Assembly (NCBI GenBank): GCA_902621725.1
Contig: CACNND010000005.1
Coordinates: 21,663-85,662, forward strand
DNA from: an uncultured Alphaproteobacteria bacterium
GTDB taxonomy: Bacteria > Pseudomonadota > Alphaproteobacteria > HIMB59 > GCA-002718135
Direction: 5' to 3'
DNA length: 64,000 nucleotides
A program made the translations under genes and the position numbers. Shown here piece by piece: positions 7,073 through 58,171 of the stretch. Below the pieces are notes generated by a model that searched no databases, was not told the origin of the DNA, and saw only the letters and a list, made by a program, of their open reading frames with translations. The first letter of the stretch is position 1. The number at the start of each line of letters is the position of its first letter.

Positions 7073-8509
7073 ATGTCATTAAATTTTTATAGACGAGTAG
7101 CGTTTGGCCTGTCGCCAAATGAAAAACCAGATAAAGATCCTCTTAATTGGGCAATAAATCAATTAGATACCATACCTGATCTCTTGTGGCCTGGAACAAT
7201 CCCAACAGAAAAAGATTTAAGAAAAAAATATGGTGAATGGGTGTACGGAGATAGAGAAGTTTTAAGAAAAAAATTTAAAAATGATAAACATGCATATAGA
7301 AAAGCAAAAGATGAATTAAGAATAAAAACTGGTGAAAGATATTTTGAATTAAATGAACATGCTATTCGTCATTTTCAAACAAAGCATTCCAAACAACCTG
7401 TTTTCGAGCGTTTCTGGCTTTTTTGGGGAAATCATTTTGCAATAAGTGAAAAAGATTTTCTAGCAGAGTTTAGTACCGGACCCTATCAACGTGAAATTAT
7501 TAGACCTAACATGGTTAAAACTTTTGAAGAAATGGTTCAGTCAGTAACTACTTCATGGTGTATGATTCATCACCTTGATAATTCAGAATCTTTTGGTCCC
7601 AATTCTAAAAAAGGAATGGAGTGGGGAGAGACTATAAACGAAAATCATGCAAGAGAATTATTAGAGTTACATACAGTATCTCCAAATGCTGGATACACAC
7701 AGGAAGATGTGATTCAATTAGCCTATATCATGACAGGTTGGGCTCACAAATGGGATAGAAAAAACTTAGAAACCGGTGATATTTGGTTTGATCAAGAAAT
7801 GCATCAAAAAGGAGATAAAGTAGTTTTAGGAGTTAAATATAAAAATGATGCAAAAAGAGAACTTGCAAAGGTAATTCATGATTTGGCAACACACCCAATC
7901 TGTATCAAATTTGTTTCAACTAAATTATGCAGGCATTTTATTACAGATGAACCAACAGATGAAATGATAAACCCAGTTATAGAAGCATGGAACAAATCCG
8001 ATGGAAACTTAATTGAAATTCACAAAGCAGTTATAACGCAAGCTTATAAGTATAATGAGATTACACATAAATTTCATCCACCTGAAATATGGTTAATGCA
8101 ATTATCTAGAATGTTTGATTTAAATATTCCGCTTTCATTTGAAAAAATGAATTATACTTTTAAGTTAAAGCCAAATAATAGACAAAGACAGTTATCTTGG
8201 ATACTTAGAGAAATAGGTCATTCACCTTATCGTGCTAAACAACCTAATGGTTGGAGTGATTTGGAGGTAGATTGGGTATCGCCAGAATTATTATTACGCC
8301 GATTTTGGTTTGCTTCAGTTGAACTTCCAATGCTTGTTAAATCTGGAAACAGATCCCATGGTTTTATTTTATCTTGTCTTAAAAATAATTTTGAAGATCA
8401 TAAAAATATGGCATCGCTTATTGATAATTTTAGATTTGGCACATCAGATTATGATTTAGGTCAAAAGTATGGAGTCATTTGCAATTTGCCAGTAGTATTA
8501 AAAATATGA
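7073..8509 (+). CDS. DUF1800 family protein
   Basis: A 478-residue member of the DUF1800 family, recognised from NENHARELLELHTVSPNAGY at about residue 188 followed by EDVIQLAYIMTGW, and from a C-terminal block with QPNGWSDL and SPELLLRRFWFA. Function unknown. Family members usually carry a signal peptide and travel with a DUF1501 protein; here the protein begins directly with the domain (MSLNFYRRVAFGLS) and I see no export signal. The stop overlaps the ATG of the DUF1501 gene (ATGA at 8506-8509), so the two are almost certainly made together. Confidence 0.88.
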   Translation: MSLNFYRRVAFGLSPNEKPDKDPLNWAINQLDTIPDLLWPGTIPTEKDLRKKYGEWVYGDREVLRKKFKNDKHAYRKAKDELRIKTGERYFELNEHAIRHFQTKHSKQPVFERFWLFWGNHFAISEKDFLAEFSTGPYQREIIRPNMVKTFEEMVQSVTTSWCMIHHLDNSESFGPNSKKGMEWGETINENHARELLELHTVSPNAGYTQEDVIQLAYIMTGWAHKWDRKNLETGDIWFDQEMHQKGDKVVLGVKYKNDAKRELAKVIHDLATHPICIKFVSTKLCRHFITDEPTDEMINPVIEAWNKSDGNLIEIHKAVITQAYKYNEITHKFHPPEIWLMQLSRMFDLNIPLSFEKMNYTFKLKPNNRQRQLSWILREIGHSPYRAKQPNGWSDLEVDWVSPELLLRRFWFASVELPMLVKSGNRSHGFILSCLKNNFEDHKNMASLIDNFRFGTSDYDLGQKYGVICNLPVVLKI

Positions 8510-10100: not shown

Positions 10101-10930
10101 TGTTACCCTCGGCAAAAAAATTTTTAGAAATAACAAATAATACTTCACCCGATATTGCCGTAATTTTAGGAAGTGGACTAACTAATTTTTTTGAAAAAAA
10201 AGATATTCAAGAATCAATCTCATATGAACAGTTAGCTGATTTTCCACAGCCAACTGTCAAAGGTCACGCAGGTAAATTAGTTTTAGGAAAAATAAATAAT
10301 TTAAATATTGTTTGTATGTATGGAAGATCACATATTTATGAGGGGCATAATCCCCAAAGTTTAGCTTCACCCATAAGAGTATTGAAGGACATTGGGTCTA
10401 AGTTATTAGTTGTTACAAATGCAGCAGGTAGTTTAGATGAAGCTATGCCGGCTGGCAGTCTAATGGCAATTAAAGATCATATTAACTGGAGTGGTTTTAA
10501 TCCACTTATTGGACCCAATGCTGAAGAGTATGGCCCTCGTTTTCATGATATGAGTGATGGGTATCACAAGTTTTATAGAGATCAGTTAATACAAGTCGCT
10601 AAAAAAATAGATCAAAAAATTTATGAAGGTATCTATTGTATGTACTCAGGACCAAATTTTGAAACTCCTGCTGAAATCAATGCCTTAAAAGTAATAGGTG
10701 GAAATGCAGTTGGAATGTCTACAGTACCAGAAGTTTTAGTTGCTAATCATTGCGGACTTCCCGTTATTGGTATCAGCGTAATCACCAACTTAGCTGCTGG
10801 TATGAATAAAACAAAATTAAGTCATCAGGAAACTTTAGAGAATGCAAGTTTAGCAGAGAACAATGTTTTAAATTTAATTAAACAATTTATACAAGAAGTT
10901 CAATTCGATGATACCTCAAGAGATAATTAG
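10100..10930 (+). CDS. punA: Purine-nucleoside phosphorylase (trimeric type)
   Basis: Phosphorolyses inosine/guanosine-type nucleosides to base and ribose-1-phosphate. The 276-residue protein is the PNP/MTAP family: VILGSGL phosphate loop, GRSHIYEGH, TNAAGSL, YSGPNFETPAEI, and VGMSTVPEV near the ribose site. The TN in SVITNLAAGM is the base-specificity position typical of 6-oxopurine PNP, which argues against methylthioadenosine phosphorylase. It overlaps cdd by one base and deoA by 23 bases. Confidence 0.92.
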   Translation: MLPSAKKFLEITNNTSPDIAVILGSGLTNFFEKKDIQESISYEQLADFPQPTVKGHAGKLVLGKINNLNIVCMYGRSHIYEGHNPQSLASPIRVLKDIGSKLLVVTNAAGSLDEAMPAGSLMAIKDHINWSGFNPLIGPNAEEYGPRFHDMSDGYHKFYRDQLIQVAKKIDQKIYEGIYCMYSGPNFETPAEINALKVIGGNAVGMSTVPEVLVANHCGLPVIGISVITNLAAGMNKTKLSHQETLENASLAENNVLNLIKQFIQEVQFDDTSRDN

Positions 10931-48810: not shown

Positions 48811-49812
48811 CTAAACTTTTACCATGAATTCTAAAAATTCATTCACACATTTGTCCCAAGTTAATTTAAGAGTAAAATTTCTACAATCAACTCTTTTTAC
48901 TTTAAGTGCCTTCTTAACTGATTTTAACAAGTCATTATCTAAAGTGTTAATCTTTTCATCTGTTAATACATCTATGGGCCCGGTTACTGGATATGCAGCA
49001 ATTGGTGTTCCACTAGCCAATGCTTCAAGTATTACATTTCCTAAAGTGTCTGTTTTAGAAGGAAAGACAAATACATCTGCGTTTGCATAATATTTTGCTA
49101 GTTCATCTCCAGTTTTTACACCGACAAAATTTATTTCAGGATATTTATTAATATATTTTTGTAATTCGGGACCATCACCCACAACAGTTTTATTATAATT
49201 TCCTTTAAGTTTTAAAAATTCTTCAATATTTTTTTCAATTGCTACTCTACCAACATAAGTCAGTTGTCTATCTTTACTGTTTGTGTCTCTTTTATTTGGA
49301 TTAAATAATTCTGTATCAACACCTCTATTCCAAACTACTAAATTTTTAAAATTATATTTTTTTAACTCATTTAGCATTGAAACTGATGGAACAAGAACTC
49401 TTTCTGAATCACTATGTAGTCTTCTTAATATGGAGTATGTAAATCTCTTTGGGATAAAAGCTCTTTGCTTAATGTAGTCAGGAAAACGGGTGTGAAAGGA
49501 AGAAGTGTATTGTAGTTTATTTTTAAGACAGTACTTACGACCAGCAAAACCTACCGGACCTTCAGTCATTATATGAACAATATCTGGATTAAATTCTTTA
49601 AAAAATTTTTCAGTAACTTTTTTAGTATTGTAAGAAATTTTTATTTCTTTGTACCAAGGATAACTAAAATTATTAAACATCTCAGGATGTAATATTTTAA
49701 TTTCAAAACCTTTTTTTTCTAGAATAGGTATAACGCTTTGAAATGTCGTAACTACGCCATTTACCTGAGGAACCCACGCATCACTAATTAACGCGATTTT
49801 TTTAGGCTGCAT
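48811..49812 (-). CDS. agt: Glycosyltransferase family 4, glycolipid synthase (Agt-like)
   Basis: A 333-residue GT-B glycosyltransferase: LISDAWVPQVNGVVTTFQ at the start, HTRFPDYIKQR, and the C-terminal donor site SKTDTLGNVILEALASGTP. In phosphate-starved marine bacteria Agt adds sugar to diacylglycerol released by PlcP, replacing phospholipids with glycolipids. The 11-base overlap with plcP upstream is exactly this known pair, which drives the name. Whether glucose, galactose or glucuronic acid is used cannot be told. Confidence 0.88.
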   Translation of the reverse strand: MQPKKIALISDAWVPQVNGVVTTFQSVIPILEKKGFEIKILHPEMFNNFSYPWYKEIKISYNTKKVTEKFFKEFNPDIVHIMTEGPVGFAGRKYCLKNKLQYTSSFHTRFPDYIKQRAFIPKRFTYSILRRLHSDSERVLVPSVSMLNELKKYNFKNLVVWNRGVDTELFNPNKRDTNSKDRQLTYVGRVAIEKNIEEFLKLKGNYNKTVVGDGPELQKYINKYPEINFVGVKTGDELAKYYANADVFVFPSKTDTLGNVILEALASGTPIAAYPVTGPIDVLTDEKINTLDNDLLKSVKKALKVKRVDCRNFTLKLTWDKCVNEFLEFMVKV

Positions 49813-50614
49813 CCTCTTTTATTTTTCGTCTTTCTTCAAAAGAAATTAATTTTAATTTTTCTCTTTCTTCGGGCCAATTAAGAATAGATAAATTTCCAAT
49901 TTCATCTTCAACGAGTGCTGTGCAACTTTCAATCCAGTCACCATCATTACAATAGAGAACACCATTTAATTCTTTTATTTCAGGTCTATGTATATGCCCG
50001 CATACAACAACATCGGCATTTTCTCTTCTTGCCCTATCAGATACAGCAAACTCAAAATTACTAATAAAGTTCGTTGCATGCTTTGTTTTCTTTTTTAAAT
50101 ATTGAGACAGTGACCAGTAAGATAAGCCCATCTTTCTTCGAATAAAATTAAATACATTATTTAACTTTAGTAAATATTCATAAAGTGCTGATCCCACTTT
50201 GGCTAACCATCTTGCATTAATGATCACAGCATCAAACTCATCTCCGTGTGTAATCAGTACTTTCCTTCCATCAGCTAATTGATGCGTATCTTCATTTTTG
50301 ATTGAAATTTCTCCAAAGGAAAAATTTGTAAAATCTTTTAATACTTCATCATGATTTCCTGGGATAAGCACTACCTTAGTTCCATTTTTCGCTTTTTTTA
50401 AAACTTTTTGAACCACGTCGTTATGTTCTTGAGGCCAATACATTTTCTTACGCATGCGCCATCCATCAACAATGTCGCCTACTAAAAATAAATATTCTGA
50501 ATCTGTTTCTTCTAAGAATTCTAAAAGCATTTTGCTTTTACAACCACTGGTTCCTAGATGGGTATCCGAAATCCAAATTGTGCGGTAAAATTTTTTATTA
50601 CTTTCAAATTTCAT
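49802..50614 (-). CDS. plcP: PlcP phospholipase C-type metallophosphoesterase
   Basis: Cleaves membrane phospholipids to diacylglycerol and phosphorylated headgroups during phosphate limitation. The 270-residue calcineurin-like enzyme has ISDTHLG, VGDIVDGW, IPGNHDE, ITHGDEFD and CGHIHRPEI metal motifs, with an internal helical region similar to LpxH (UDP-diacylglucosamine pyrophosphatase), for which it could be mistaken. The glycosyltransferase partner downstream and the Pho island favour PlcP. It is divergent from the SET gene. Confidence 0.88.
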   Translation of the reverse strand: MKFESNKKFYRTIWISDTHLGTSGCKSKMLLEFLEETDSEYLFLVGDIVDGWRMRKKMYWPQEHNDVVQKVLKKAKNGTKVVLIPGNHDEVLKDFTNFSFGEISIKNEDTHQLADGRKVLITHGDEFDAVIINARWLAKVGSALYEYLLKLNNVFNFIRRKMGLSYWSLSQYLKKKTKHATNFISNFEFAVSDRARRENADVVVCGHIHRPEIKELNGVLYCNDGDWIESCTALVEDEIGNLSILNWPEEREKLKLISFEERRKIKEDAA

Positions 50615-50681
50615 TAATTAAAGATTTGTTCTTATACATAAAAGTATCATTTTATAATACAATTTATTATTATATGTGTGT

Positions 50682-50699
50682 ATTGTATAAAAATAACAG
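50682..50699 (-). promoter_or_regulatory. Weak candidate Pho box before plcP
   Basis: On the minus strand CTGTTAT, TTTT, ATACAAT. The first half-site matches CTGTCAT at six of seven positions; the second at about four. It ends about 68 bases before the plcP ATG and directly precedes the SET start in the other direction. Confidence 0.3.
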
Positions 50700-50700
50700 T

Positions 50701-51201
50701 ATGACGCAGAAAATTTGGTTTAAAAAAAAATCACCCCTTCACGGTTCTGGATTATTTGCAAAAACTAATATTAAAAAAGGCCAGAAAGTAATCCAATATA
50801 TTGGTGATAAAGTTACTAAAAGAGAGGGTGACAAAAGAGCAGATAAACAAATCCGTAAAGCAAAAAAAGATAAAAATAATGGCATGGTCTATGTTTTTGA
50901 ACTAAACAAGCGATACGACATTGACGGTGATGTTGATTATAATTTTGCAAAATTTATTAATCACTCATGTAATCCTAATTGTGAAGTAGACATCATAGAT
51001 AATGAAATTTGGATTTCTTCTATTAAACGAATAAAAAAAGGTGCCGAACTTTTTTATAACTATGGTTATCCTTTTGATACAGATTTTGAGGATCACATTT
51101 GTAAGTGTGGTTCTAGAAATTGTGTTGGTTATATTTTAAGTGATAATGATTGGCCTAAACTAAAAAAATATGAAAAAAAAACTAAGACTAAGTCTAAGTA
51201 A
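50701..51201 (+). CDS. SET-domain protein lysine methyltransferase
   Basis: A 166-residue SET protein. The ATG at 50701 is chosen over the track start 50578, which lies within the plcP coding region and gives a non-family leader. SPLHGSGLFA, FINHSCNPNC (86-94), ELFYNYGY and a post-SET CKCGSRNC (134-141; Cys 134, 136, 141) match the catalytic core of eukaryotic-type lysine methyltransferases that also occur in some bacteria. Its last 32 bases overlap the phoR start, so it is co-transcribed with phoR. Target unknown; a regulatory protein is possible. Confidence 0.88.
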   Translation: MTQKIWFKKKSPLHGSGLFAKTNIKKGQKVIQYIGDKVTKREGDKRADKQIRKAKKDKNNGMVYVFELNKRYDIDGDVDYNFAKFINHSCNPNCEVDIIDNEIWISSIKRIKKGAELFYNYGYPFDTDFEDHICKCGSRNCVGYILSDNDWPKLKKYEKKTKTKSK

Positions 51202-52222
51202 GATACCTTCGATTATTATTGCAATTGATACAAATAAGGAAATAATTTTTTACAATAATGCAGCTAAACAAAAATTTTTATTTATCGATGAAGGAAGAGA
51301 TCTCAATAATATTATTAGATCAACAGAGTTAAATACTTTTATTGATAAAGCCTTTAGGGAGAAAGAAGATTTTAAGTTTGAATTCACCCCATCTAATTTT
51401 AGTGATATGTATTTTATTGCTGACTTAATATTTGTTGAAAAAGATTATGAAGAATTATTAATATCACTTAATGATCAAAGTCTTCTTAAAAACTACGAAC
51501 AAATGCGAACAGATTTTGTGGCTAATGTAAGCCATGAATTGAGAACTCCTCTTTCCTCAATTCTAGGCTATGTTGAAACAATTAAAAATTCACTCAATGA
51601 AGATAAGACCAATGACAAAACGGTTGGTAAATTTTTAGACACAATGGAAGATCAGGCTTGGCGTATGACTAGACTAGTCGAAGATTTATTATTACTAAGT
51701 AAATATGAGACTGAAGATAAACCTATAGAATTTCAAGAAGCGAATATAAGGCAATTAATTGAAGGCGTAGTAGATAATTTACAAAACAAGTTAATGGCCA
51801 AAAAAATTGAAGTTCAAATCAAGGATGATTTTGATAAGTCTACAATATCAGCAAACAAAGATGCTTTGATCCAAGTTTTTTTAAATCTAACTGATAATGC
51901 AATTAAATATAGCAGAGAAAATTCTACTATTGAAATTGAGCTTGAAAGTGTAATTGATGACAATACTACCTTTTGCCAAATAAGTTTTATAGATAAGGGA
52001 GAAGGCATATCGAAAGAGCATTTAACTAGACTTACTGAAAGATTTTATAGAGTAGATAAAAATAGATCTCGAAATCAAGGTGGTACGGGTTTGGGTTTAT
52101 CTATTGTTAAACATATAACTAATAGGCATAATGGTAAATTATCGATAAAAAGCAAGGTAGATAAGGGTTCAACATTTACTATTTCTTTACCAGTATTTCA
52201 GCAAACTGTAATAAATACTTAA
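51170..52222 (+). CDS. phoR: Phosphate regulon sensor histidine kinase PhoR, without membrane segments
   Basis: Sensor kinase partner of PhoB. The 350-residue protein begins almost at once with a PAS-like domain (IPSIIIAIDTNKEIIFYNNAA), then the DHp helix FVANVSHELRTPLSS with phospho-His122, N-box NLTDNAIKYS, IDKGEGIS and GGTGLGLSIV. PhoR normally has N-terminal membrane helices; none is visible here, and the upstream sequence is the SET gene in another frame. It lies directly before pstS and its 3' end carries the candidate Pho box. phoB is not adjacent but follows pstSCAB-phoU. Confidence 0.9.
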   Translation: MKKKLRLSLSKIPSIIIAIDTNKEIIFYNNAAKQKFLFIDEGRDLNNIIRSTELNTFIDKAFREKEDFKFEFTPSNFSDMYFIADLIFVEKDYEELLISLNDQSLLKNYEQMRTDFVANVSHELRTPLSSILGYVETIKNSLNEDKTNDKTVGKFLDTMEDQAWRMTRLVEDLLLLSKYETEDKPIEFQEANIRQLIEGVVDNLQNKLMAKKIEVQIKDDFDKSTISANKDALIQVFLNLTDNAIKYSRENSTIEIELESVIDDNTTFCQISFIDKGEGISKEHLTRLTERFYRVDKNRSRNQGGTGLGLSIVKHITNRHNGKLSIKSKVDKGSTFTISLPVFQQTVINT

Positions 52223-52223: not shown

Positions 52224-52265
52224 ATATATTCTGTAAGGACAACCTTATTTTAAATGAGGCTTAAT

Positions 52266-53261
52266 ATGAAAAATGTAATCAAATTAATTGCTGTCCTTGC
52301 TTTACTTGGAACTACTTCAGTTTCAGCAAGAGACTATATTTCAATTGTAGGATCTTCTACAGTTTATCCTTTCGCTACTTTAGTTGCTGAAAAAATGGCA
52401 TCAGAAGGAATGAAAGCACCCGTAATTGAATCAACTGGTTCTGGTGGAGGACACAAATTATTTTGTGCAGGTGTTGGAGTTGAACATCCAGATATCACTA
52501 ATTCTTCAAGAGCACAAAAAGATAAAGAATTCAAACTTTGCCAAGATGGCGGTGTAACTGATATCATCGAAGTTAGAGTTGGTAATGATGGTATAGCTTT
52601 TGCATACGCTGCAGATTATGAATGGAAATATACTAACGGTGCTACAATGAAAGGTGGCATTGATTTAACTAAAGAAGAAATCTGGCAGGCAATGGCTAGA
52701 GATAATGCAAATGCTCCAACAACTTGGTATGAAATAGATAAAAGATTACCAAAAGTTGAAATTTCTATCATGGCACCTCCTCCAACTTCTGGAACAAGAG
52801 ATGCATTTGACTCACTTGTAATGAAAAAGGGTTGTGTTAAAGATATGTTAGTTGCTGACGGTGATTGTCAAGCGTATCGTGAAGATGGCCACGTTATTGA
52901 AGGTGGTGAAAATGATGAACTGTATGTTGAGCATATAACTAAAGAACAAGGTGCATTCGGTATCTTTGGTTATAGTTTTGTATCTAATAATTCTGATAAA
53001 GTTAAAGCGTCAATGATTAACGGTGTTGAAATCTCTATGGAAGGTATCCAAGATTATTCATATCCAATAGCAAGACCTTTATTCTTCTACATTAAAAAAG
53101 CACACATTGGTGTTATTCCTGGTTTAATGGATTATGTTAATGAGTTTGTAAGTGAAGAAGCAACAGAAGGTTACTTACTAGATGCTGGACTTGTTCAACT
53201 AAGTCCTGAGGATAGAGCAACTGTTCTTGATGCTATTTCTAATCAAACAAATTATAAATAA
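52266..53261 (+). CDS. pstS: Phosphate ABC transporter, periplasmic binding protein PstS
   Basis: High-affinity phosphate binding protein. The track starts at 52254; the ATG at 52266 has a GAGG ribosome site six bases ahead and starts MKNVIKLIAVLALLG, a clean signal peptide ending SVSA, so I use it (331 residues). IVGSSTVYPFA, ESTGSGGGHKLFC, PPTSGTRDAF and FGYSFVS are PstS phosphate-site motifs; it belongs to the alphaproteobacterial type with extra length. A strong terminator follows, so pstS mRNA can be made in excess over pstCAB. Confidence 0.95.
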   Translation: MKNVIKLIAVLALLGTTSVSARDYISIVGSSTVYPFATLVAEKMASEGMKAPVIESTGSGGGHKLFCAGVGVEHPDITNSSRAQKDKEFKLCQDGGVTDIIEVRVGNDGIAFAYAADYEWKYTNGATMKGGIDLTKEEIWQAMARDNANAPTTWYEIDKRLPKVEISIMAPPPTSGTRDAFDSLVMKKGCVKDMLVADGDCQAYREDGHVIEGGENDELYVEHITKEQGAFGIFGYSFVSNNSDKVKASMINGVEISMEGIQDYSYPIARPLFFYIKKAHIGVIPGLMDYVNEFVSEEATEGYLLDAGLVQLSPEDRATVLDAISNQTNYK

Positions 53262-53283
53262 AAATCTTAAATTTTTATAAAAT

Positions 53284-53310
53284 GGGGGCATACAAGCCCC
53301 CTTTTTTTTT
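53284..53310 (+). terminator. Rho-independent terminator after pstS
   Basis: GGGGGC, six-base loop ATACAA, GCCCCC and a nine-T run. It separates pstS from pstC; read-through would supply pstCAB at lower levels, a common arrangement for binding-protein operons. Confidence 0.92.
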
Positions 53311-53324
53311 ATACTAAGTTATAA

Positions 53325-54698
53325 ATGTTTTTTTGGTCTTTAGTTTTAATTGCAGTCGGAATTTTCTCATCCTTTATATACGGAAGATCAAGAATTAAAT
53401 TAAATTCTAAAAAACAAGGTACGAAAAGCAAATCTCTTCCCAATTATTACGCACAATACGTTTTAATGTGGTGTTTGTTTCCTGCACTAATTGTTTATTT
53501 TTCATGGGCTATTTTTCAAGAACAGATTATTCAAAACATAGTTATTAGTAACTTTGAATTTATTGAGGGCGCAGTTTACAACGAAGGATTATTGTTAGCA
53601 GAGATTAGAAATGTTGCTAATAACCCTTCTTTTGCTGATGGTAAATCTATAGAAATAATTAATGCTGCATCTCATTATTCTTCCTTAAGACAAATAAGTC
53701 AAATATCTTTTTATACCTCAATAATCATTATAATGTTACTTGGAGCCTTATACGCTTCACAAAAATTAAAACCAGAATTTCATGCTCAACATACAATTGA
53801 AAAATATATTCAATATATACTTATATTTTGTTCATCTGTTGCTATTTTCACTACAATAGGAATAGTTTTTTCACTAATATTTGAAAGCCTTCGCTTTTTT
53901 GCAGAAGTATCAATATTTGAATTTTTATTTAGTACTGAGTGGTATCCTTTTATTCCAATTAGAGAAGGTCAAACAGCTGCAGAGGGATCCTTTGGTGCAG
54001 TACCAATATTTGCTGGAACATTTTTAGTAATGGTAGTAGCCATGTGTGTTGCGGTACCTCTTGGATTATTAACAGCAATTTATTTAGCAGAATACGCAAG
54101 TCAAAGAGTTAGAAAAATAGTTAAACCTCTTCTCGAAATTTTGGCAGGAATACCAACAATAGTCTACGGGTTCTTTGCTTTTGTTAGTGTTGCACCTTTC
54201 GTTAAAGCATTTGGACAATCAATTGGAATTGATGCTTCACCAACAAGCGCCCTTGCAGCCGGCATGGTAATGGGGGTTATGATTATTCCTTTTATTTCTT
54301 CTTTATCTGATGATGTAATAAACTCTGTCCCACAAAGTCTAAGGGAAGCATCTCTTGGTATTGGCGCTAATAAAGCAGAAACTATTAAAAAAGTAATTTT
54401 ACCAGCAGCTTTACCTGGAATTGTTGGAGCATTTTTATTAGCAATATCCAGAGCGATAGGGGAGACTATGATTGTTGTAGTCGCAGCAGGCACAGCCCCC
54501 AATCTTACGGGCAATCCTTTTGAAAATGTAACAACAGTTACAGTTCAAATTGTTGTGGCCTTAATAGGTGATCAAGAATTTGATAACCCAAGAACATTAT
54601 CAGCATTTGCTTTAGGATTAGTTTTATTTGTTATTACATTATTTCTTAACATTATAGCTCTACAAATAGTAAAGAGATACAGGGAGCGTTATGAATAA
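53325..54698 (+). CDS. pstC: Phosphate ABC transporter permease PstC
   Basis: Membrane subunit, 457 residues, the long alphaproteobacterial form with an extra N-terminal region of about 180 residues before the permease core. VPLGLLTAIYLAEYAS starts the core; LEILAGIPTIVYGFFA and SLREASLGIGANKAETIKKVILPAALPGI (EAA loop) are PstC motifs. It follows the terminator by 14 bases and overlaps pstA by eight bases. Confidence 0.95.
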   Translation: MFFWSLVLIAVGIFSSFIYGRSRIKLNSKKQGTKSKSLPNYYAQYVLMWCLFPALIVYFSWAIFQEQIIQNIVISNFEFIEGAVYNEGLLLAEIRNVANNPSFADGKSIEIINAASHYSSLRQISQISFYTSIIIIMLLGALYASQKLKPEFHAQHTIEKYIQYILIFCSSVAIFTTIGIVFSLIFESLRFFAEVSIFEFLFSTEWYPFIPIREGQTAAEGSFGAVPIFAGTFLVMVVAMCVAVPLGLLTAIYLAEYASQRVRKIVKPLLEILAGIPTIVYGFFAFVSVAPFVKAFGQSIGIDASPTSALAAGMVMGVMIIPFISSLSDDVINSVPQSLREASLGIGANKAETIKKVILPAALPGIVGAFLLAISRAIGETMIVVVAAGTAPNLTGNPFENVTTVTVQIVVALIGDQEFDNPRTLSAFALGLVLFVITLFLNIIALQIVKRYRERYE

Positions 54699-55971
54699 TT
54701 CTATTGCTAAAGAAAAAATTATTTCTTTGAGAAAAAAGAGAAGTTTAGAAGATATGCGATTTAAGTATTACGGCTTCACAGCTATGTGTTTATCTTTAGC
54801 AGTTTTAGTTTTTCTTTTGTATACAATATTTTCTAAAGGATACACTGCTTTTCAAAAAACAATTGTTCTCCTAGAAGTTGATTATAATCAAGAGGTTTTA
54901 AAACTAACACCTGACTCTTCAGATGAAGATATGGAAAAAGGAAAATTTTTTAGAGTTAAAAAACAGGCTATTGAAAATTTTTTCCCTGATCTCTCAAAAT
55001 CAGATATTAAATTAGTAAAAAAATTATTTTCTATAAATGTAGATAAGGAAATTAAAGACTACTTCTTAGATAATCCTGAAGTTATTAATACTAAGCAACA
55101 AATTTGGGTAACTGCCCATAGTGATGTGGATCAACTATTAAAAGGTAATTCAAGAAGGGATGTGCCAGAAGATAGAAGAAAATTAAATGATATTCAATTA
55201 AGTTATGTTGATCAATTAGTTGAAGAAAATAGAGTTAAACAAGTTTTTAATAATTTCTTTTTTACTAAAGCAGATTCAAGGCATCCTGAAATTGCTGGTG
55301 TAGCTGGTTCATTTATGGGATCATTATTTACTCTTTTTACTGTTTTTATTTTATCTTTTCCAATTGCTATAGGAGCGTCTGTTTATCTTGAGGAATTTGC
55401 TCCAAAAAATAGAATAACTGAATTAATAGAAGTAAATATTTCAAATCTAGCAGCAGTCCCATCAATAGTTTTTGGACTACTTGGGTTGGGGGTATTGCTT
55501 AATGTTTTTGGTCTTCCAAGGAGTACACCGTTAGTTGGAGGGTCCGTATTAGCCTTAATGACGTTACCAACCATTATCATTGCCTGCCGAGCTTCATTGA
55601 AAGCTGTTCCTCCTTCAATTAAAGAAGGAGCACTTGCAGTTGGAGCAACAAAAACACAAGCGGTATTTCATCATGTCGTACCCCTTGCACTACCAGGGAC
55701 TTTAACAGGGACTATTATTGGATTAGCACAAGCATTAGGAGAAACAGCACCACTAATAATGATTGGCATGATTGCATTTATTCCTAATATTCCAACTGGT
55801 TTAACAGAACCTTCAGCAGCACTACCTGTTCAAATATATCTTTGGGTGGAAAGTGCAGAAAGAGGTTTTCAAGAAAAATCAGCTGCAGCCATAATGGTAA
55901 TTTTAATATTTTTGTTTATGATGAATGCCATTGCAGTGTTCTTAAGAAATAGATTTGAAAGGAAGTGGTAA
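54691..55971 (+). CDS. pstA: Phosphate ABC transporter permease PstA
   Basis: Second membrane subunit, 426 residues, also the long form with a periplasmic-type insert of about 170 residues between the first helix and the permease core. FPIAIGASVYLEEFAPKNR, NLAAVPSIVFGLLGLG and IKEGALAVGATKTQAVFHHVVPLALPG (EAA loop) identify PstA. Overlaps pstC by eight bases; pstB begins three bases after its stop. Confidence 0.95.
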   Translation: MNNSIAKEKIISLRKKRSLEDMRFKYYGFTAMCLSLAVLVFLLYTIFSKGYTAFQKTIVLLEVDYNQEVLKLTPDSSDEDMEKGKFFRVKKQAIENFFPDLSKSDIKLVKKLFSINVDKEIKDYFLDNPEVINTKQQIWVTAHSDVDQLLKGNSRRDVPEDRRKLNDIQLSYVDQLVEENRVKQVFNNFFFTKADSRHPEIAGVAGSFMGSLFTLFTVFILSFPIAIGASVYLEEFAPKNRITELIEVNISNLAAVPSIVFGLLGLGVLLNVFGLPRSTPLVGGSVLALMTLPTIIIACRASLKAVPPSIKEGALAVGATKTQAVFHHVVPLALPGTLTGTIIGLAQALGETAPLIMIGMIAFIPNIPTGLTEPSAALPVQIYLWVESAERGFQEKSAAAIMVILIFLFMMNAIAVFLRNRFERKW

Positions 55972-55974
55972 AAC

Positions 55975-56736
55975 ATGAGTAACTCTAAAATATTGGCAAA
56001 TGGTGTAGATGTATATTATGGATCCAAACAAGCCCTTTTTGGAATCTCAATGGATATCAAGGAGAAAGAAGTTACGGCATTAATCGGTCCTTCAGGATGT
56101 GGTAAATCAACTTTCTTAAGATGTATAAACAGAATGAATGATTTAATTGAAATATGTAAAGTATCGGGATCAATAAAAGTAGATAACGAAGAAATTATTA
56201 GTGAAAAAACCGATGTTGTAAGTCTAAGATCTAAAATTGGAATGGTATTTCAAAAACCAAATCCTTTTCCTAAATCTATTTTTGATAATGTTGCTTATGG
56301 CCCAACTATACATGGTTTAGTTGACTCAAAAAATGAATTAGAAGAAATTGTACATTCATCATTAAAAAAGGCAGGTCTATTTGATGAAGTAAAAGATCGA
56401 TTAAATGAACCTGGAACAAGTTTATCAGGCGGTCAACAACAACGATTATGTATTGCAAGAGCAATTGCTGTTAATCCTGAAATAATCCTAATGGATGAAC
56501 CTTGCTCTGCTTTAGATCCAATAGCAACTGCTATTATAGAAGAATTAATTGATGAGTTAAGATTAAACTATACAATTATTATAGTAACTCATTCTATGCA
56601 ACAGGCAGCCAGGGTTTCGCAGAAAACATGTTTCTTCCATTTAGGAGAATTAATAGAAACGGGTGAGACAAACAAAATTTTTACAAATCCTGATAATACA
56701 AAAACACAGGATTACATTACAGGGAGATTTGGATAA
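55975..56736 (+). CDS. pstB: Phosphate ABC transporter ATP-binding protein PstB
   Basis: ATPase of the Pst importer, 253 residues, normal length. Walker [21 protein letters not shown] (a PstB-specific Q-loop), signature [14 protein letters not shown], Walker [25 protein letters not shown]. Overlaps phoU by one base. With PhoU it also relays phosphate status to PhoR. Confidence 0.98.
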
Positions 56737-57446
56737 TGAAACAAGAAGGACACATTGTAAAATCATATGATGAAGAAATTAGAGACATTAAAAATAATAT
56801 TGTTGATATGGGCAGTTTAGTTGAAAATCAACTAAAAGACTCACTTCAATGTTTAAAGGATAAAGATACAGAATTTGCCGAAAAAATTATAGAAAACGAT
56901 AATGTAATTGATAAAGCATATAATACTCTTGATCAAAGCTTAGTTGAAATACTTGGCAAAAGACAACCGATGGCTGCAGACTTACGAACAATTTTTTCAG
57001 CAATTAAAATCAATAAAGATCTAGAAAGAATAGGAGATCATGCAACAAATATTGCCAAAAGAGTAGCAGTAGCAGAAATAATTTTGCCAGAAAAACCTTC
57101 GAGAGATATTATTAATATGGGTGTACAAGTAAATATAATGATTAGTGAAGTAATAAAAGCTTTTTTAGAATTTTCAGATCAAGCCGCAAAAAAAGTTTGG
57201 TTAATGGATAGACAAATTGATGAAGAATATCTTGGAATATTAAGACAACTATTAACCTACATGATGGAAGAACCAAAAAGAATCACAGCATGTACAAGTC
57301 TTTTATATATGGTTAAAGATCTAGAGCGAATTGGTGATTATGTACAAAATATAGCTGAAGATATTTATTATGCAGTTTCTGGTGAGCCCCTATTTGATGG
57401 TAATCCAGACCCAACCTGGGAAGCAATTCTTCCAAAGAAAAAATAA
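56736..57446 (+). CDS. phoU: Phosphate signalling protein PhoU
   Basis: Represses the Pho response when phosphate is plentiful by linking Pst to PhoR. 236 residues of two three-helix PhoU domains; INKDLERIGDHATNIAKR and VKDLERIGDYVQNIAED carry the ExxxD metal-binding repeats. One-base overlap with pstB. A second PhoU-like protein (DUF47) pairs with Pit elsewhere in the window. Confidence 0.97.
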   Translation: MKQEGHIVKSYDEEIRDIKNNIVDMGSLVENQLKDSLQCLKDKDTEFAEKIIENDNVIDKAYNTLDQSLVEILGKRQPMAADLRTIFSAIKINKDLERIGDHATNIAKRVAVAEIILPEKPSRDIINMGVQVNIMISEVIKAFLEFSDQAAKKVWLMDRQIDEEYLGILRQLLTYMMEEPKRITACTSLLYMVKDLERIGDYVQNIAEDIYYAVSGEPLFDGNPDPTWEAILPKKK

Positions 57447-57447
57447 A

Positions 57448-57465
57448 TTGTAATAGAATTGTAAC
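57448..57465 (+). promoter_or_regulatory. Candidate Pho box before phoB
   Basis: TTGTAAT, AGAA, TTGTAAC, two near-identical half-sites at 11-base spacing, in the 41-base gap between phoU and phoB. A promoter here would give a very short leader. Suggests PhoB autoregulation. Confidence 0.6.
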
Positions 57466-57487
57466 AAAAATTTAATAGTAAAGATCC

Positions 57488-58171
57488 ATGAAACTAAAAA
57501 TGCTTATCGTGGAAGATGAAGAAGCATTACTAGATCTTCTTAAATTTAATTTTAATAAAGAAGGATATAAAATAGATACTGCAACGGACGGTGAAACTGC
57601 TTTAGAAAAAATATTATATAAACCACCTGACATAATTATTCTTGATTGGATGTTACCAGAGTTATCAGGAATTGAACTTTGTCGTAGAATTAGAAAACAT
57701 AAAGAACATAAGAATATTCCTATCATAATGTTAACAGCAAAAGGTGAAGAAGAAGATAAACTGCGCGGCTTAGAAACTGGAGCAGATGATTACATAACAA
57801 AACCCTTTTCGGTTAACGAATTAGTGGCAAGAGTAAAAGCTGTTCTTCGACGAATAAGACCAATGTTTGTAGATGAAGTTTTAACTTATAAAGGAATAGT
57901 AATTGATCTTGTATCTCACTCGGCATCACGAGATGGCGAAACTCTTCATCTTGGTCCAACAGAATTTAATTTATTAGCTTTTTTTATGGAAAATATTGGT
58001 CGTGTCTTTAGCCGTGAACAATTACTTAATCATGTTTGGAAAAATGAGGCCCATGTAGAACCTCGAACAGTTGATGTTCATATAAGAAGACTACGAAAGG
58101 CCATTAATAATGACGTAAAAGAAGATTTTATAAGAACCGTGAGATCAGCAGGATATTGTTTTGGCTCGTAA
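57488..58171 (+). CDS. phoB: Phosphate regulon response regulator PhoB
   Basis: OmpR-family activator of phosphate-starvation genes. 227 residues: receiver domain with VEDEEALL acidic pocket, phospho-acceptor Asp53 in IILDWMLPE, Thr/Lys in LTAKGEEEDK and YITKPF; then a winged-helix DNA-binding domain with LGPTEFNLLAFFM, REQLLNHVW and VEPRTVDVHIRRLRKAI, close to the PhoB recognition helix. It is separated from its sensor phoR by the pst operon. Confidence 0.96.
   Translation: MKLKMLIVEDEEALLDLLKFNFNKEGYKIDTATDGETALEKILYKPPDIIILDWMLPELSGIELCRRIRKHKEHKNIPIIMLTAKGEEEDKLRGLETGADDYITKPFSVNELVARVKAVLRRIRPMFVDEVLTYKGIVIDLVSHSASRDGETLHLGPTEFNLLAFFMENIGRVFSREQLLNHVWKNEAHVEPRTVDVHIRRLRKAINNDVKEDFIRTVRSAGYCFGS

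Follow-up and report, generated by a model that had tools for sequence, protein, structure and literature searches.

The closest described counterpart of the locus analyzed here is fGIp of HIMB59, a phosphate island that is exchangeable at one position according to the excerpts of PMC10734472. For version H of this island, that of the family GCA002718135, the excerpts give PhoR-PhoB, the pst operon, and polyphosphate genes; a glycosyltransferase, LpxH, and a methyltransferase are classed as core there, and “SET domain” stands in the legend of Fig. 2. The window, which is the whole stretch of 64,000 nucleotides analyzed, belongs to the same order and represents the same locus, with PhoR-PhoB and the pst operon alike in both. 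The adjacency of SET and phoR is already published and drawn in this source, the excerpts of which do not discuss the function of SET, the 32-nt overlap, the island edge in SET, or the SAR11 counterpart. New here are the retention of SET across SAR11, its probable exchange between orders, and an island edge placed by sequence comparison inside the SET gene.

The SET protein itself has the same cofactor, catalytic, and post-SET motifs as the SET1-type MLL/KMT2 enzymes but is a stand-alone protein of 166 aa without PHD, WIN, and nSET regions and without WRAD partners, in a bacterium without histones; it is KMT2-like and not a member of the KMT2 family proper. Go1-SET, BtSET, BaSET, and NUE, which were compared by description only, are likewise small stand-alone SET proteins, and they methylate protein lysine residues in vitro (PMC3980110, PMC2904774). 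Most of them are proteins of pathogens or methanogens, whereas the SET of the window is near-core in free-living, streamlined plankton. BurB (PMC12542666; PDB 9l4t) is again a stand-alone SET protein of similar length, but its BurB-like relatives form another clade and differ from the window protein in the substrate-channel segment and at the C terminus. The features of the locus are as follows.

48811 to 49812, minus strand: GT4 glycosyltransferase (PF13439, PF00534), core according to the excerpts of PMC10734472.
49802 to 50614, minus strand: LpxH/PlcP-like metallophosphoesterase (PF12850, PF00149).
50615 to 50700, no strand: divergent intergenic region of 86 nt from the LpxH-like gene to SET, the same in the island-carrying locus L107 and the island-less locus L112.
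50701 to 51201, plus strand: coding sequence of the predicted SET-domain protein lysine methyltransferase, 166 aa (open reading frame, PF00856, AlphaFold2 model, PDB fold match).
50740 to 50751, plus strand: cofactor-loop motif H14-G-S-G17 with G17 invariant (alignment of 37 homologues).
50959 to 50979, plus strand: AdoMet-binding motif N87-H-S-C90-N-P-N93 with N87, H88, C90, and N93 invariant (same alignment).
51061 to 51063, plus strand: Y121 of YxYG, invariant (same alignment).
51100 to 51123, plus strand: post-SET motif C134-x-C136-x4-C141, presumed zinc site, invariant in the 37 homologues.
51142 to 51198, plus strand: basic C-terminal helix (WPKLKKYEKKTKTKSK; helix 148-165 of the model and charges of the tail).
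51170 to 51201, plus strand: overlap of SET and phoR, 32 nt, with the same spacing in 60 of 61 genomes.
51170 to 52222, plus strand: phoR-type histidine kinase, 350 aa (PF00512, PF02518; TIGR02966).
52254 to 58171, plus strand: right-hand remainder of the island with pstS (PBP-like), pstC, pstA, pstB, phoU, and a phoB-type regulator gene; pstS was assigned by PF12849 and the others were named from the reading of the open reading frames and the excerpts of PMC10734472.
58226 to 59773, plus strand: murJ (PF03023), the right flank common to genomes with and without the island, where the blastn match of L107 and L112 resumes.

The SET reading frame starts with the ATG at 50701 and is also open upstream to a TTG at 50578, a start that is not conserved. 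The product matched the Pfam SET domain PF00856 over the full profile (positions 1 to 105 of 105; E 5.6e-23; 81.8 bits with a cut-off of 22.4) and is the sole SET protein of the 1.38-Mb, 82% complete source genome. By sequence, the closest solved structures were the SET domains of KMT2/MLL (E 1e-21; family profile 2e-35). The AlphaFold2 model had a mean pLDDT of 91.9, and a Foldseek search of the PDB ranked MLL1, NSD1, and MLL4 first (E 6.3e-13, about 34% identity, and a probability of 1.00 for MLL1 and NSD1), all top fold matches being protein lysine methyltransferases of the MLL/NSD/SET1 kind. The model contains the SET fold with a post-SET segment shutting the lysine channel, as supported by Foldseek. 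An alignment of 37 homologues from Alphaproteobacteria, Gammaproteobacteria, Omnitrophota, Verrucomicrobia, Spirochaetota, and archaea (five or more phyla) contained 20 invariant positions, including N87, H88, C90, N93, Y121, C134, C136, and C141, and the catalytic motifs GxG, NHSCxPN, and YxYG are intact in the window protein and invariant or nearly so in the homologues. The CxCx4C motif together with the cysteine of NHSC places the protein in the post-SET zinc subclass (MLL/SUV39/NSD-like). By analogy to known post-SET structures and to the SET family, C90 is presumed to be the fourth zinc ligand and Y121 the catalytic tyrosine. A sequence-only reading of this DNA had described a eukaryotic-type lysine methyltransferase with post-SET cysteines, and the full-length PF00856 match, the invariant C134, C136, and C141, and the MLL/KMT2-like fold agree with it. 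Some SET proteins are inactive. Invariant motifs, AlphaFold2 model, and Foldseek ranking indicate that this one is very likely an active enzyme.

A basic tail follows the post-SET segment in nearly all relatives and is a family trait, extending to histone H1-like Lys/Ala sequences in some SET proteins from Verrucomicrobia. Long tails of this type fused to SET were seen in the verrucomicrobial loci L131, L132, L155, and L157, and also in L055 of G173, a single large alphaproteobacterial genome in which the Lys/Ala-rich tail is located N-terminal of the SET domain and a basic tail C-terminal.

The kinase gene downstream was called phoR-like because it adjoins pst, phoU, and phoB. Its score for TIGR02966 was 303.5 bits, below the cut-off of 334.2, and zero transmembrane helices were predicted from the hydropathy of the 350 residues, so that it does not qualify as a membrane-anchored PhoR. 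It is possibly a soluble phosphate-state kinase, judged from its sequence. Homologues of the kinase from the HIMB59 family proper, which includes “alpha proteobacterium HIMB59”, and from SAR11 retain an N-terminal hydrophobic stretch, unlike the kinase of the source family, most likely GCA-002718135. On the other side of SET, the divergently oriented phosphoesterase is of the calcineurin type according to Pfam and carries the name LpxH and core status in the excerpts of PMC10734472. The 32-nt overlap between SET (50701 to 51201) and the kinase gene (51170 to 52222) had been noticed in the sequence-only reading and is real; the proposed location between plcP and phoR was correct as to position, with the qualification that the neighbor is LpxH/PlcP-like, “plcP” being a functional guess, and that the kinase is phoR-like.

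In the source family, a PhoR with an E value of at most 1e-60 was found in 63 of the 110 genomes. The overlap was exactly 32 nt in 60 of the 61 genomes with both genes on a contig, the exception being G061 with the genes 1.2 kb apart, and it was kept despite PhoR identities spanning about 61 to 100%. SET proteins up to 99% identical occur in single-cell genomes of relatives, which, along with the gene order given in PMC10734472, assign the window to the order HIMB59 (AEGEAN-169). The linkage within this family is neither a matter of chance nor of a single genome. SET was present and PhoR undetected in 34 genomes of the family, absence calls for PhoR resting on incomplete single-cell genomes; PhoR without SET was found only in G047 and G091, both with phoR cut at the start of a contig.

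The position of the phosphate island explains why SET touches phoR. The near-isogenic loci L107, with the island, and L112, without it, were 91% identical in DNA sequence through the LpxH gene and SET. This match stopped at base 10468, with the ATG of phoR at 10470, and blastn homology returned in murJ. The C terminus of SET reads KKYEKK... with the island and KKELKKKK... or similar without it. The edge of the exchangeable island can therefore be mapped to the final ten SET codons, and the variable part is the island, not SET. Each incoming island would re-create the tail of SET together with the start of the next gene, phoR. A PHO4-like gene fills the island slot in L112 to L114 and L117 to L119; the slot gene at 8476 to 9435 of L083 and its orthologues (cluster c23) resemble a PHO4-like permease, a weak match of 23 bits that is under the Pfam cut-off. 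In L004 and L088 (G078), it is pstS that shares a 32-nt overlap with SET; phoR is missing before pstS and pstCAB after it, an apparent scar of a deletion in the island.

Since the island re-creates the tail of SET and the start of phoR, SET is probably cotranscribed with phoR-pst where the island is present and would then head the phoR-pst-phoU-phoB run. The 86 nt upstream of SET are identical with and without the island in L107 and L112, so that the SET promoter probably contributes to the expression of phoR in island-carrying cells. The Pho box pattern CTGTCATNNNNCTGTCAT had no match near SET, including the 86-nt intergenic region, and none beyond chance near pstS, and it occurred in the window 3 times versus 5.3 times expected by chance; its consensus is of the Escherichia coli type, which limits the weight of this test in the present lineage. 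With neither an upstream Pho box nor a conserved Pho linkage, the latter being lost in many genomes, SET was not assigned to the Pho regulon.

Outside the source family, the neighborhood of SET changes. In the HIMB59 family proper, SET is situated at the opposite end of the island, several kilobase pairs from phoR, and adjoins an LpxH-like gene or a GNAT/MiaB flank. In nearly all SAR11 genomes compared, SET and phoU occupy different contigs or are separated by hundreds of kilobase pairs, an outcome that should stand even though about nine N-terminal residues of the phoU query were inexact, since the matches begin after or near these residues. SET of the SAR11 genome G248 (subgroup g94) adjoins arsC-like, aquaporin, and phoR genes, and phoU is 15 kb from SET in its relative G448. 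SET borders O-antigen genes in SAR11 f149 and is located downstream of a gene of the histone deacetylase family (PF00850) in most loci seen of SAR11 f89. This gene is immediately 5' of SET on the same strand in L097, L098 (where it matches PF00850), L193, L201, L203 to L206, and L208 to L210 of f89, where both may form a pair of eraser and writer. As a general partner of SET, the deacetylase-type neighbor was rejected, being confined to f89 and absent from part of it. In the loci L129, L145, L148, and L182 of Omnitrophota, a distant phylum, SET follows a REC-HisKA hybrid kinase, with an additional stand-alone response regulator in two loci. These two-component neighbors were not accepted as support, as they represent one lineage with kinases 24 to 29% identical to PhoR of the window.

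SET was present in 137 of the 162 genomes of the HIMB59/AEGEAN-169 order (18 of the 20 that were at least 90% complete) and in 106 of the 118 genomes of the SAR11 Pelagibacterales (93 of 105). An even draw of Alphaproteobacteria yielded 46 SET carriers among 288 genomes, with comparable scores outside HIMB59 and SAR11 in only two genomes of one genus. SET is near-core in both orders and not universal; it was missing in all drawn genomes of the SAR11 genera g227 and g229. Its absence from 2 of the 20 high-completeness HIMB59 genomes and from whole SAR11 genera indicates that it is not essential. Relatives also occur in Omnitrophota and Woesearchaeota. In G547:C3, G469:C1, G494:C3, and some ten further SAR11 genomes, an additional and weaker SET hit (domain length about 115 codons, E values mostly about 1e-7 to 6e-10) may represent a paralogue. 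SET proteins about 46 to 55% identical to that of the window are also encoded by the IMG/VR contigs L215 to L229, which are classified as viral; no deacetylase, TruA, or pho neighbors were found in these contigs, and they carry either a phage-borne copy or host contamination.

The dN/dS values of SET were 0.01 to 0.06 in HIMB59 pairs, and in four within-family pairs they were 0.016 to 0.053 versus 0.116 to 0.143 for PhoR; purifying selection is stronger on SET than on phoR. In the SET tree, the proteins of the source family were sister to those of SAR11 f149 (support 96/94) and those of the HIMB59 family proper to those of SAR11 f89 (95/87). Monophyly of the HIMB59 proteins was rejected (p-AU 0.010) and that of the SAR11 proteins less firmly (p 0.034), values to be read in light of 164 alignment columns, an AT-rich composition, and groups picked after a first tree. 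An exchange of SET between the two orders is probable as far as these sequences indicate. The idea that SET and the phosphate island were exchanged together by SAR11 G248 and HIMB59 was dropped: the Pst and Pho proteins were 26 to 73% identical, and no HIMB59 family was consistently nearer, leaving no sign of such an event.

The best explanation for these data is that SET is independent of the Pho system. It probably encodes an intact AdoMet-dependent lysine methyltransferase that acts on a conserved protein of its own cell, and its contact with phoR would be the edge of the island. The basis is formed by the observed motifs, conservation, and selection and by the predicted fold, and the catalytic steps are deduced. 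AdoMet would be bound through the NHSC motif, the zinc-bound post-SET segment would close the channel that the substrate lysine enters, and Tyr121 would be part of the active site; according to known SET-family chemistry, the product should be a methyl-lysine on a protein. If SET does the same job in HIMB59 and SAR11, as is presumed, the substrate should be a protein common to both. A near-core, strongly constrained gene with changing neighbors points to such a shared substrate and not to a Pho protein. The best guess, reached by deduction, would be HU/IHF, a ribosomal protein, or the basic tail of SET itself, which may be automethylated at its lysines by analogy to chlamydial NUE (PMC2904774).

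A basic nucleic acid-binding substrate is the leading guess owing to the basic tails and to archaeal Go1-SET, whose substrate is MC1-alpha, a chromosomal protein (review: PMC3980110). One branch of this explanation, the methylation of HU/IHF-type nucleoid proteins with an effect on global transcription as a kind of “chromatin” modification, is conceivable but doubtful; a chromatin protein had been the other option named in the sequence-only reading. In its favor, the source genome encodes HU and two IHF-like proteins, the basic tail is family-wide, and H1-like Lys/Ala tails exist in L131 and L157 and, N-terminally, in G173. No canonical histone was found in the source genome, and PF00808 was present in just 2 of the 25 SET carriers tested, both archaea, so that a canonical histone was discarded as the common substrate; moreover, chlamydial NUE left Hc1 unmethylated (PMC2904774), against an earlier report on a homologue.

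Alternatively, SET might be a small-molecule methyltransferase of the BurB kind, producing S-methylmethionine or another methylated metabolite. BurB, with 172 aa, methylates free methionine (PMC12542666), such sulfur compounds are handled by marine bacteria, and a place in core metabolism would account for a gene that is conserved but has no fixed neighbor. This alternative is nevertheless unlikely. The BurB-like proteins of L068, L069, and L080, of which that of L069 matches BurB 9l4t, served as stand-ins for BurB and are separated from the window SET by a long, fully supported branch. Neither the Y64-x-F66 pair nor the N81/A83 segment is present in them, a GG loop replaces YxG, and their C-terminal helix is unlike that of the window protein. 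Alignment and tree place this protein outside the BurB type, and its best sequence and fold matches are protein lysine methyltransferases.

The sequence-only reading had taken the overlap as a pointer to a substrate in the Pho system: SET, translationally coupled to PhoR, would methylate PhoR, PhoB, or another Pho protein and tune phosphate sensing. Indeed, 60 of 61 genomes share the overlap even at PhoR identities as low as about 61%, and the linkage is conserved within the family. In the HIMB59 family proper and in SAR11 G248, pho genes again lie close to SET, a recurrent association with phosphate islands that could reflect a looser functional tie, and the PhoR of the source family, soluble by prediction, would be reachable in the cytosol. 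Nevertheless, this interpretation is quite improbable and not supported. The 34 genomes of the source family with SET and undetected PhoR have no clear counterpart with PhoR and without SET, the placement of SET differs in the HIMB59 family proper, and SAR11 keeps SET and phoU far apart. The same 32-nt geometry arises with pstS in place of phoR, constraint on SET exceeds that on PhoR, and the phosphate island is variable with its edge in the last SET codons. A secreted effector modifying eukaryotic histones in the style of Chlamydia or Legionella, as the best structural matches, eukaryotic histone methyltransferases, might suggest, can be dismissed as extremely improbable, since the hosts are free-living plankton, no signal sequence was seen in the SET protein, SET is near-universal in streamlined genomes with relatives in Omnitrophota and Woesearchaeota, and the model of Legionella AnkI/LegAS4 scores 30 of 550 bits.

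The locus is a caution on inferring function from overlapping genes, as the overlap here reflects where a swappable island ends and not a pathway. Streamlined ocean bacteria keep few useless genes, and about nine in ten SAR11 and most AEGEAN-169 genomes retain SET, a protein to which no function is assigned in the open literature searched. Its substrate would reveal the role of a histone-type methyl mark in a histone-less cell. Tentatively, SAR11 and AEGEAN-169, the most abundant of the streamlined bacteria in the sea, may share a histone-methyltransferase-type lysine methylation of a conserved nucleoid or ribosomal protein, exchanged between the orders and surviving extreme genome reduction. 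If true, this would be a bacterial protein methylation mark of global ecological weight.
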